From assembly GCA_014859965.1 (NCBI GenBank), contig JACZKQ010000180.1, positions 1-53,720 of the forward strand: a stretch of DNA of 53,720 nt. The letters are read 5' to 3'. This document shows positions 40,622-44,958 of this stretch, one piece after another. This DNA is from Phycisphaerae bacterium (lineage in GTDB: Bacteria > Planctomycetota > Phycisphaerae > Sedimentisphaerales > Anaerohalosphaeraceae). Below the pieces are notes generated by a model. It was not told where the DNA came from. It saw only the letters and a list, made by a program, of their open reading frames with translations, and did no database searches. Made by a program: the position numbers and the translations under genes. The first letter of the stretch is position 1; each line of letters opens with the position of its first letter.

Positions 40622-40677
40622 CCTTTATCTGGAGTATGCGTTTGTCTATATTTAAGACTTCGACAGGAGAAAGAGCG

Positions 40678-41388
40678 ATGAAGAGAATTATGGTTCCGGT
40701 TGTTATTTTGGCGCTGGTCGCCGCCAGCAGTAATGCTGTTGTACTGGTAACGCCTCTGCGGGTGGATTTCGGCACGCCGACTTCGGCAGTTCAGGAAGGC
40801 TGGCAGGCATTCCAGGGCATTCACGAGGATGCGCTGAATCTGTATGTGCCTCGGGAGTTTTCGGCGTTCGGCACGACTGTCACGGTTGGGCTTAGCTGGA
40901 ACCCGCATGTGCCTCGCTGGGAGTCGATGCAGATGATCGATCGGGGCGGTAGCGTGGACGTAGATACGCCGGACCTTCTTCGCGACTGGACGGGGACAGA
41001 CGGACGCGTTTACGGCGGCCCGTTGACGCTGACGATCACCGGTCTTGCGGCCGGGGAGTATGGCTGGCTTTCGTATCACCACGACACCTCAGATCAGACG
41101 GGCATTTTTGACGTGCTGGTTGTCGACGCAAGCGGCGAGCGGACCTTTACGGGCATCGACATCAGTGACGGCAACTCGGGCGTCAAGACATTAGCCGAAG
41201 CGACGAAATTCAGCACGAGCCTTTTGAGTGACGGTTCGGCGATCAAGCTGACTTTCACGTCGGTCGTTGGCGAGCCCAACGCCGAAAAGTTCTTTGTGAT
41301 GAACGGCTTTCAGATCGTGCCGGAGCCTGCAATGCTCGTACTCCTTGGCCTGGGCGGTCTCGGCCTGCTGAGACGACGCCGCGCGTAA
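40678..41388 (+). CDS. PEP-CTERM sorting-domain protein
   Basis: 236 residues; ATG at 40678 with AGGAG eight bases upstream. A signal peptide (MKRIMVPVVILALVAASSNA) and a C-terminal PEP-CTERM anchor (VPEPAMLVLLGLGGLGLL then RRRRA) mark it for exosortase processing and surface or matrix release. The middle is a beta-rich domain of about 190 residues with LTITGLAAGEYGWLSYHHDT, resembling other cell-surface domains of planctomycetes; no catalytic motif is seen. A single-gene unit with its own strong promoter and terminator. Confidence 0.93.
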   Translation: MKRIMVPVVILALVAASSNAVVLVTPLRVDFGTPTSAVQEGWQAFQGIHEDALNLYVPREFSAFGTTVTVGLSWNPHVPRWESMQMIDRGGSVDVDTPDLLRDWTGTDGRVYGGPLTLTITGLAAGEYGWLSYHHDTSDQTGIFDVLVVDASGERTFTGIDISDGNSGVKTLAEATKFSTSLLSDGSAIKLTFTSVVGEPNAEKFFVMNGFQIVPEPAMLVLLGLGGLGLLRRRRA

Positions 41389-41417: not shown

Positions 41418-41449
41418 AGCCCCTGCGGTAAACCGCGGGGGCTTTTTTT
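41418..41449 (+). terminator. Rho-independent terminator after the PEP-CTERM gene
   Basis: AGCCCCTGCGGT-AA-ACCGCGGGGGCTTTTTTT, a strong stem with seven T, 30 bases after the stop. Confidence 0.93.
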
Positions 41450-41593
41450 GTTTTCGTACCTGCATACTGTCTCCTATCTCGCGTGGACGGCGAGAGTTAT
41501 TGGGGGGTGATGGAAGATGTGCACCATGAAGGACATGAGGAGGCTCGATGCGGCGGAGAGTTGGGGCGCGTTTTCTTTGTGTTACCTCGGAGG

Positions 41594-42133
41594 CTACACT
41601 TTGAGGGGAACCGTCCAATTCTGTACTTGCAGACTTTGGCCAGCAACGGCTTTGATTGCCCTCATTTTGTCGTCAGACACCAAGATCATTCCATAGCGGA
41701 GTGCCTGGGCTGCCATCCATAAGTCGTTTTCCTGAATCTGCAGATGGAGGGATGATACAGGATCGATCAGTTGTTCTGGGCGCAAGCCCTTGCCTTTCAT
41801 CTCTTTAGGCCCATATTTTTCAAACAGTCTCGCCCTGAGTTGACCATATTGCACGGCAGTATGCTTATCGATTAATAGCGGCAACGGTGACTGTCCGGCA
41901 ACAAAAGCCCTGAACTGAGCTTCCCGAGACCGCTCCTTCAACTTCATGGCAGTGTAGCCATATTCGATTTCCCCCCACGTGATGATAGATGCAAGCACAT
42001 GGGCACTGCCAGTATGTTTTGGGTCGCCGGTGATCGCTTGTATGTGAGCCTGGATATTTGCCGCGTACTCTGCATACTTCTCGCCGTTAAACCAGAAGCT
42101 CCAGATATTCGTGTCCAACAGATAATCCGCCAC
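41594..42133 (-). CDS. PIN-domain ribonuclease (VapC-like)
   Basis: 179 residues from a GTG at 42133 with GGAG six bases upstream; that site overlaps the stop of the methylase gene, so the two are coupled. PIN acidic residues are visible: YLLDTN (Asp7), WGEIEYG (Glu55), ENDLWMAAQAL (Asp137) and LVSDDK (Asp154/155). PIN proteins cut structured RNA such as tRNA or rRNA. No VapB-like antitoxin is next to it; it is longer than most VapC proteins (about 130-140). Its partner appears to be the methylase upstream. Confidence 0.87.
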   Translation of the reverse strand: MADYLLDTNIWSFWFNGEKYAEYAANIQAHIQAITGDPKHTGSAHVLASIITWGEIEYGYTAMKLKERSREAQFRAFVAGQSPLPLLIDKHTAVQYGQLRARLFEKYGPKEMKGKGLRPEQLIDPVSSLHLQIQENDLWMAAQALRYGMILVSDDKMRAIKAVAGQSLQVQNWTVPLKV

Positions 42134-42136
42134 GGA

Positions 42137-44725
42137 TCACTCCTTGAAGGCCTTAACGGCATTTTCAAAGGCCTTGCAGACTTCAGGTGAACGATTCTTC
42201 TCGACCCATTCGGCGGCGAAGGCGGCTGTCGAAGCTTTGTACTCAGGCGAAATGAGAACATGCAATGGTATGTAAGGGTTAGAGCCCGGCGGATAATAGG
42301 TTCTGAAGTCGAAATCAACTCCCGGGCGCTTCCAACCGGAGAAGAACTCAAGCACCTGTTTTTCGAATTCGGGCGGAAGGTCGTATAGCCGCATGACCTC
42401 GGCGTCGATGGCTAACATTCGTTGCCTGGCTTCCGCCTTGTTCACGTCCGCCTGCAGAACACCATCGGACGGGTACAGAGCAAAGTAATTCTCCACTAAT
42501 GCTTTAAGAGTAGACAAGGAACTTCCGGTTATAGGCGGCAGCGGCATGTTGCGAATTGTGCCGGATAGGTTATGGCGTTCCATACTGTTACAGAATACAT
42601 AAGCGTTTGCGAGCGGACTGTTGCACACTGCCCACAGCGTCTGTAAGTTCCACGAAGGATTCGTGGGGCGTAGAACCAGGAAATTGCTGGTGACCGAATG
42701 GCCTTCACGATCGAGCAGTGCTTTCAGTCTCCAAGGCCCTTGACTGGTTCGTGCATAATTCATGAGAACCTGCGGTACACCTGTCTCTGTGCCCCATTGA
42801 GGACGCCGAATGACCTTGGGGTCGAGGTTCATCCAGACGGGTGCAGGTAAGTCAACAAGGTTAAGCTTGCGCGGAAACTTAGCGAAACCCCGGACTGCAC
42901 CTTTAAAGCAAGTATTTGAAATCGTCTTTGCGCCTGCGGGAAGATTCTTTCCTTTGTATTCCAGGCCCTTACCGCCGTCAGCAACCGCCGCCAATGTTTC
43001 GTAAGCAGATTCACAGTACTGCCAGACTGCGTGCAGTGGCGGCAGTCTAAGATCGAAGCATGCGTTTTCGGCGAAACGTGATTGGGGTACTACTTCGTAT
43101 GGTGCAGAATAATTCGCTGTAAAGCTCTGCAGCTTGTGCTTTTCAACACGTACGACGCGGGTCTCGTTGTCGCCATGACTTTTTGCGGCTTCAGCAGTAA
43201 GCTTTTTACCAAGCAGCACGACCGACTTGTGTCTTGCAAAGACAAAGACATTTTCCGGCAGACAGCAGATTTCTCTCAGTTCAAATTGATGCAACAGGTG
43301 TTGGCGTAATGCCGCGGACTCCTTAGCATGTAAAAAACCTTGCGGCAAAATGACGCCGAACACAGAATTTGCCGGCATGTGGGGGAGAGTTCTCCAGAGC
43401 ACTTCTGTTGCTTTGTTGAACGAGCGAAGTGAAATACCCGCAGCCCGGTATGCAGCTTGTTCCCCAGGAGTGAAGTCCTCGAAAGGCGGATTGGACAGAA
43501 GGATGGTGGCATTCCGGGCAACAGCAGACAGCGTGTCGTTCGCATAGACATCTTCTTCTATGAGCTTCCAACCATTCGGATTGGGGATATCCGCCAGTGT
43601 GAGTGAAAGTCTTGCGATTTCTCGTGCGAAAGAGTCCTTCTCCAGCCCGACAAGCCGCTGCTGAAGATAATCATGCCGCTGATCAGGATCGCCGGAATAC
43701 AGCTCTCGCAAGAGCCTCATGGCTGATGTGAGGAAGGGTGCATGGCCACATGTGGGCTCAAGGATTACTCTTTGCGCTTCGGGGATATCCTTTATCCAGG
43801 GCCAAAGCTGCCAGACGATATAGTCGACCAGATACTGGGGAGTCGCATGGATGCCAAGCGCCTTTCTGAGGTCGGGGGTGACAAGGACCTGCTCGTAGAC
43901 GTTTCCGAGTGCTTCGACGGTGAGATTTGCAAGACTGGAAAAGTCCTTCAACTTCGCAGCGGCCGCGTGCAGCGCTAACTCCTGTGTGGGAGAATGTACT
44001 TCGAGGGGAATCTCTGCTCCGTAGTGACGTTTGACGCGGCTAAGAACCATCGACACATCCTGCAGGGATAACTGCCGGAAATTCCTGACGCCTTTGTCGT
44101 GAAGAAGCTTTGCAGCGAGAAGCCAGAAGGCAGCCTTGAACAGCCATTTTTGATTCTGAGGTAATTTTAGCTGGGCGGGTGTGAATGCCTGCGATCTCAA
44201 GGTATTCAAAACCTGCTCCATCAGGCGGGCCAACTCCTTACCCATCTCCTCCTCAAGTACAGGCATGAGCCCGGCATCGACAAACTCCAACTGCTGCTCC
44301 GTGTCCAACCTTCCGAGGTTCTTGGCACGGTAGATGCGAGCCGGCGAGAAGTCGTCTTTGTGCCGGCCAAAAAAGGCTGCCCACTCGGACTTTAGAATAC
44401 GCTCTTTCAGGACCGCACCGTCGCGACTCAGCTTCCACAGCAGCAAACGTGAATCGTGGAGGAGAAAAACAAGCGGCGCGCCAAAACCGCGGTATGATGC
44501 CGCCGCAGGAGCAAGAGCGGATTCTCCGAGATTAGATGCATCCGCAATTGCGAGGCATGCGCTTCGTGCGTCAAAGCTCTGATCGGCAAAAGCTGCCAAA
44601 GGAATGGAGTATGTGCCCTTAGCATCGGCATAGACGTAGTCCTCGCGCAGCAGGTCACTCGCATAACCGCACTTGTGCAGATAAGAAACTAATTGGCTTA
44701 TTCTATTGGCGCTGCTTGCGGGCAC
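42137..44725 (-). CDS. Large N6-adenine DNA methyltransferase (Eco57I/type IIG-like)
   Basis: 862 residues from a GTG at 44725. The methylase core has motif I VILEPTCGHAPFLTSAM (322-337) and motif IV LSNPPF (410-415), so it should transfer methyl from SAM to adenine N6. Motif I deviates from the common DPACGSG. About 300 N-terminal residues precede it; they contain ACLAIADASNLGESALAPAA, GFGAPLVFLLHDSRLLLWKL, where type IIG enzymes carry a PD-(D/E)XK nuclease, but I cannot see an intact D-ExK triad. The C-terminal 300 residues resemble a specificity (TaqI-like) region (VCNSPLANAYVFCNSMERH). No separate endonuclease gene is adjacent; instead a PIN nuclease is coupled. Likely acquired DNA. Confidence 0.85.
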   Translation of the reverse strand: MPASSANRISQLVSYLHKCGYASDLLREDYVYADAKGTYSIPLAAFADQSFDARSACLAIADASNLGESALAPAAASYRGFGAPLVFLLHDSRLLLWKLSRDGAVLKERILKSEWAAFFGRHKDDFSPARIYRAKNLGRLDTEQQLEFVDAGLMPVLEEEMGKELARLMEQVLNTLRSQAFTPAQLKLPQNQKWLFKAAFWLLAAKLLHDKGVRNFRQLSLQDVSMVLSRVKRHYGAEIPLEVHSPTQELALHAAAAKLKDFSSLANLTVEALGNVYEQVLVTPDLRKALGIHATPQYLVDYIVWQLWPWIKDIPEAQRVILEPTCGHAPFLTSAMRLLRELYSGDPDQRHDYLQQRLVGLEKDSFAREIARLSLTLADIPNPNGWKLIEEDVYANDTLSAVARNATILLSNPPFEDFTPGEQAAYRAAGISLRSFNKATEVLWRTLPHMPANSVFGVILPQGFLHAKESAALRQHLLHQFELREICCLPENVFVFARHKSVVLLGKKLTAEAAKSHGDNETRVVRVEKHKLQSFTANYSAPYEVVPQSRFAENACFDLRLPPLHAVWQYCESAYETLAAVADGGKGLEYKGKNLPAGAKTISNTCFKGAVRGFAKFPRKLNLVDLPAPVWMNLDPKVIRRPQWGTETGVPQVLMNYARTSQGPWRLKALLDREGHSVTSNFLVLRPTNPSWNLQTLWAVCNSPLANAYVFCNSMERHNLSGTIRNMPLPPITGSSLSTLKALVENYFALYPSDGVLQADVNKAEARQRMLAIDAEVMRLYDLPPEFEKQVLEFFSGWKRPGVDFDFRTYYPPGSNPYIPLHVLISPEYKASTAAFAAEWVEKNRSPEVCKAFENAVKAFKE

Positions 44726-44958
44726 ATCCTGCCTTTCCGATCGTGAACAGATGCGAGCCTGCGATTCCTCATAAATGATATCGACAAAGGCGTCCGGGAA
44801 CTTGAATTACGAGAAGATTAGCATATCCTGATTCGGTGGTCAACGGTCGACTACGAGCACGGAGGATGTGGGGTTGGTTGGGGGGGTGATGAAAGATGGT
44901 GCACGATACAGGACGTGAACTTCCTCCTGGTGTTCGCAGTGTTTCCTTCATCCCTCTC

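Follow-up and report, generated by a model that had tools for sequence, protein, structure and literature searches.

Within a stretch of DNA of 53,720 nucleotides from a Phycisphaerae bacterium (hereafter the window), two adjoining genes probably constitute a toxin-guard module. According to this proposal, a restriction-like methylase that has lost its nuclease activity would hold a toxin by means of an antitoxin-like tail and would release that toxin when the methylase is disturbed. The proposal draws on the features of the two proteins, on the recurrence of the gene pair in other genomes, and above all on the way in which the methylase tail and the toxin have been exchanged among relatives.

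The methylase gene (positions 42137-44725, minus strand, GTG start) encodes a protein of 862 residues that is recognized as a gamma-type N6-adenine DNA methylase (Pfam N6_Mtase, E = 1.7e-14). An earlier note on this DNA, made from the sequence letters, had described a methylase of this length with two characteristic motifs. Both are present, namely motif I (EPTCGHAPFL; 43730..43759, minus strand, residues 323-332) and motif IV (NPPF; 43481..43492, minus strand, residues 412-415). A profile of the methylase family matches the structures of BseCI, another adenine-specific DNA methylase, HsdM, and the type IIG/B enzyme BsaXI. As in type IIG enzymes, motifs I and IV occur in the gamma order and a recognition region is part of the same chain; the TaqI_C specificity domain yields weak matches, and these are seen in relatives of the methylase only. 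Two other classes of methylase were considered. The MAD2 methylase profile of MADS scores 28.4 bits against a curated cut-off of 720, and the BREX-2 PglX profile scores 22.2 bits against a curated cut-off of 400, which places the protein outside both MADS and BREX.

A DNA nuclease would be expected in a type IIG enzyme, and the earlier note could see none in this protein. Inspection of the N-terminus for an intact nuclease agrees with that impression, in that a restriction-endonuclease-like fold is found but the canonical catalytic motif is not recognizable. The AF2 model of residues 1-269 (pLDDT 80.6) adopts a restriction-endonuclease-like arrangement, and the domain itself is assigned to residues 1-138 (44312..44725, minus strand) on the basis of this model, its structural matches, and the alignment of its third strand. 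The N-terminal model resembles the nuclease domains of DrdV (Z 9.9, rmsd 3.1, 117 residues aligned) and BpuSI (Z 9.5, rmsd 2.9, 123 aligned), as well as an HsdR (Z 8.9, rmsd 5.2, 126 aligned). Foldseek alone returned nothing below 1e-3 for this model, and a profile of the N-terminus gave no meaningful match to PDB sequences. Type IIG enzymes carry an active PD-(D/E)XK nuclease in the same chain as the methylase. Here the fold is present, but the E/D-x-K acid/lysine pair on the third strand is absent from all ten family sequences, in which this strand is composed mostly of small or hydrophobic residues (RSACLAI in the window copy). The domain has the appearance of a relic, and not of a nuclease that is still intact, with its catalytic residues seemingly lost. 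Acidic residues elsewhere in the N-terminus (D29 and D34) and K135 are kept, and given these residues an unusual nuclease active site is, strictly speaking, still conceivable. In one relative (L018:3618-3986), the nuclease-like domain is a separate ORF of 122 aa and shares 4 nt with the methylase ORF, an arrangement that reflects either a frameshift or a natural split.

Downstream of the methylase lies the gene for a VapC-like PIN ribonuclease of 179 residues (41594-42133, minus strand; Pfam PIN, E = 1.7e-12), a protein to which PADLOC assigns no family. The PIN profile matches VapC structures, a tRNA(fMet) endonuclease among them, and the acidic residues D7, E55, D137, and D155 are invariant in ten loci, as the active site of a VapBC toxin demands. 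Alignment to the Pfam PIN match reveals an insertion (LFEKYGPK..RPEQLIDP..; 41741..41827, minus strand) that is typical of a methylase-linked PIN subfamily and that sits before an ENDLW motif. It had been suggested that this gene has a GTG start and a ribosome site at the methylase stop, and the junction confirms both points. It reads AAGGAG-TGA-TCC-GTG, such that the final two methylase codons double as the Shine-Dalgarno-like sequence of the PIN gene (AAGGAG; 42140..42145, minus strand). An AF2 model of the methylase tail and PIN as one read-through chain is of low confidence (mean pLDDT 54.5); it reveals no interface and was set aside.

Relatives of the methylase are found in Planctomycetota, in Acidobacteriota, on three Rhizobiaceae plasmids, and on one viral contig. 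The methylase family had no match in phage records, and a Rhizobium-type query had none among viral contigs. An effector gene lies downstream and in the same direction in each of the 14 methylase loci whose downstream side is readable, a count from which the distant relatives L021 and L022 were left out. The start of the effector gene ranges from an overlap of about 20 nt with the methylase to 20 nt after it. Ten of these effectors belong to one PIN subfamily, one is another PIN protein, one is a RES protein, and two are HNH proteins. The same gene pair had been suggested as something to seek in other genomes, and indeed the PIN neighbor is conserved across phyla, with other effectors where it is absent. 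The divergence of PIN and that of the methylase are correlated (Mantel r = 0.61, p = 5e-5, n = 10 loci). Among 294 genomes of the same phylum, members of the PIN subfamily were found nowhere but next to the methylase, although the three positive genomes had already contributed to the profile. The system is rare, being carried by about 1% of the sampled genomes, and its patchy spread is typical of mobile genes.

Could an orphan methylase merely lie beside an unrelated toxin gene through chance or hitch-hiking? Toxin genes are frequent and mobile, and this pair is flanked by short repeats. However, the pairing is seen in all of the readable loci and across phyla, and the tail and the effector change together. 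We regard a chance association as very improbable, and it is practically excluded because the pairing recurs. Taken with the missing strand-3 motif, the presence of an effector gene next to every readable methylase supports the idea, first put forward in the earlier note, that an RNA-cutting PIN protein may stand in for a DNA nuclease beside the methylase, and that the two may serve as a defense or addiction module.

Several additional loci carry related genes. On a viral contig (L029:1-7457), a methylase-PIN pair lies near a ParB/N6_N4 methylase gene; a terminase-like ORF was identified there by eye only, and the PIN gene apparently has a CTG start. On another viral contig (L053:5719-6249), the PIN sequence of this subfamily is confined to the C-terminal half, lies in an odd reading frame, and has no methylase upstream; this fragment is probably either a remnant or the product of a chimeric assembly. 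Two genomes carry distant methylase relatives (L054:4726-8515 and L055:5448-9536; 26-27% identity), in which the next gene has weak matches to the metallo-beta-lactamase fold in place of PIN, RES, or HNH.

The methylase ends in a C-terminal tail (residues 809-862; 42140..42301, minus strand), which we propose is the effector-binding, antitoxin-like part of the protein. The main argument for this proposal is that tail and toxin change together in relatives; for the window copy, whose tail resembles no known antitoxin in sequence, the role is suggested by the position of the tail and by these exchanges. When the methylase of a Rhizobium plasmid (L026) is compared with L027 and L028, its closest PIN-type relatives, identity amounts to 32-56% as far as the pre-tail region but only 8-21% in the tail. 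This tail matches the Xre_MbcA_ParS_C and TIGR02293 antitoxins, and the next gene encodes a RES toxin. In L018, the match to the tail profile of the family extends no further than position 53 of 89. The remaining portion matches ORFs of other genomes, among which those in L049 and L052 are short, at 60 and 83 aa, and each immediately precedes a PIN gene similar to that of L018. Yet other tails, accompanied by an HNH effector, are present in L071 and L072, both of which were found after the idea of tail exchange had taken shape. The HNH protein of L071 weakly resembles PtuB. Plasmids searched with the L018 and PIN-type tails gave no match, and a search for a free-standing L071 tail found only a relative with a recognition region, a tail, and an HNH protein.

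One further ORF (L076:139-2324) encodes 529 aa and has an N-terminus that by eye is sigma-factor-like, fused to the family's recognition region and tail; a methylase domain is lacking, and an HNH gene follows. The unit made up of recognition region, tail, and effector seems able to move independently.

These comparisons also bear on the possibility that the pair is an ordinary two-gene restriction-modification system, wherein the downstream PIN or HNH protein would be a DNA-cutting subunit that replaces the decayed N-terminal nuclease. The methylase is of a restriction type and has a nuclease-like N-terminal domain, and HNH proteins are common DNA nucleases, so L071 and L072 could be ordinary pairs of this kind. 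The remaining effectors are harder to accommodate. RES is not a nuclease family, and the L026 methylase that precedes it bears an antitoxin domain. Likewise, the PIN profile matches VapC RNases, and the tail and PIN of L018 match a free-standing pair that resembles a toxin-antitoxin system. The RES case and the antitoxin-type tails therefore weaken this explanation, which we judge to be quite unlikely.

The grafting of antitoxin domains onto the tail and the presence of the system on plasmids would likewise suit a plain addiction module, in which the body of the methylase, for the sake of autoregulation or stability, just takes the place of the DNA-binding half of an antitoxin and senses neither phage nor methylation. 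Yet motifs I and IV and the GxHxTP motif are invariant in the family alignment at 30-50% identity, and autoregulation alone would not need them. The nuclease-like domain is also kept. We consider a module of this simpler type unlikely, and continue to favor a toxin guard. More tentatively, it is possible that the family represents a general immune platform, where one nuclease-dead methylase sensor is furnished with different toxins (PIN, another PIN, RES, and HNH) that are plugged in by exchange of the tail and the downstream gene.

The surroundings of the pair were described in the earlier note as direct repeats and a lowered GC content, and both descriptions hold in part. Imperfect direct repeats do lie outside the gene pair on both sides (41502..41538 and 44881..44918, plus strand, by pairwise comparison), but they extend over 38 columns rather than 42-44 bases. 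They are 84% identical with one gap. Of 4860 random window pairs, a single one scored as high, and over the whole genome the match has E = 6.8e-4. The repeats are real but short. Their use as the boundary of an element was set aside on account of their shortness and level of identity, and of weaker look-alikes that occur elsewhere at chance level. The GC content of the methylase and PIN genes (0.53 and 0.50) is indeed below the window mean of 0.595, but values just as low are seen in the adjoining genes for a histidine kinase and a response regulator (0.537 and 0.525), and GC3 alone separates the pair (0.57) from these two genes (0.63-0.65). Because the kinase and regulator genes are as low as the pair, GC content is weak evidence of foreign origin. 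Comparison with an empty site was also abandoned, since the closest family members, which share only 40-55% of the neighboring kinase, are too distant for this use.

No defense neighborhood was seen at the window locus, nor is there a gene for a specificity subunit beside the methylase-PIN pair. Among the annotated relatives, only the Agrobacterium plasmid copy (L028:4288-8774) adjoins a Shedu gene (SduA); a small gene of no assigned function overlaps the methylase start of this copy by 4 nt. In the window, a gene for a PEP-CTERM-type protein (40636-41388) ends just short of the module, and a strong terminator-like hairpin (41418-41443) is located between the two.

It is reasonable to speculate as to how a guard of this type might operate. 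The first protein would be what is left of a restriction-like enzyme, namely a methylase that has a recognition region of its own and might still read and mark DNA. Its C-terminal tail, given the exchanges observed by comparison, would bind and silence the separate effector encoded downstream, which in the window is predicted to be a PIN RNase of the VapC type whose active site is intact. The junction sequence suggests that PIN is produced by translational coupling, and hence only together with its guard. If the methylase were inhibited, lost, or engaged on the wrong DNA, then PIN could be freed to cut RNA, probably tRNA, and growth would stop. Loss of methylation or phage infection, the triggers envisaged in the earlier note, might set this off. 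Perhaps the pair acts in this manner as an abortive infection system, as an addiction system, or as both.

Some parts of this arrangement have precedents. Ronin (Silas et al. 2025, as summarized in the review PMC12409349) is a locus that resembles a restriction-modification system but is without a restriction subunit and has the toxin RonA, and the summary presents it as a proposed sensor of anti-restriction proteins. As with the window pair, a modification enzyme is kept, restriction is lost, and a small toxin stands in its place. However, the review's summary speaks of modification subunits, whereas the window protein unites a methylase, a recognition region, and a proposed antitoxin tail in one polypeptide. 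Joint exchange of tail and toxin is likewise absent from that summary, and the comparison with RonA is one of description rather than of sequence. PrrC is an RNase that a type I restriction enzyme holds inactive and that a phage inhibitor releases (PMC12409349), such that in PrrC-EcoprrI a DNA restriction-modification enzyme keeps an RNA-cutting toxin silent (PMC12409349; PMC12707154). The window module similarly combines an RNA-cutting toxin with an enzyme of the restriction-modification type, which would be its silencer. PrrC differs in being an anticodon nuclease within a working type I locus, whereas the window effector is a PIN protein with no adjoining specificity-subunit gene, and its partner is a single-chain methylase without a recognizable DNA nuclease active site.

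The arrangement is also reminiscent of VapBC, in that a VapC-like PIN gene lies downstream of a partner gene to which it is probably coupled at the junction. However, the partner upstream is an 862-aa DNA methylase and not a small DNA-binding antitoxin. Similarly, the type IIG/IIL enzymes BpuSI and DrdV have a nuclease-fold domain followed by a methylase and a recognition region in one chain, but the window enzyme is without the canonical nuclease residues, is extended by a C-terminal tail, and is accompanied by a separate gene for an effector. No description of the methylase-PIN pair was found in the open-access papers searched, a body of literature that mostly excludes subscription papers and preprints.

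If the proposed function is correct, restriction enzymes and toxin-antitoxin modules would be physically joined in one polypeptide, and a decayed restriction enzyme would be reusable as a sensor. Furthermore, the exchanges of tail and toxin would provide a natural set for testing how one sensor can be wired to different death effectors in bacteria.
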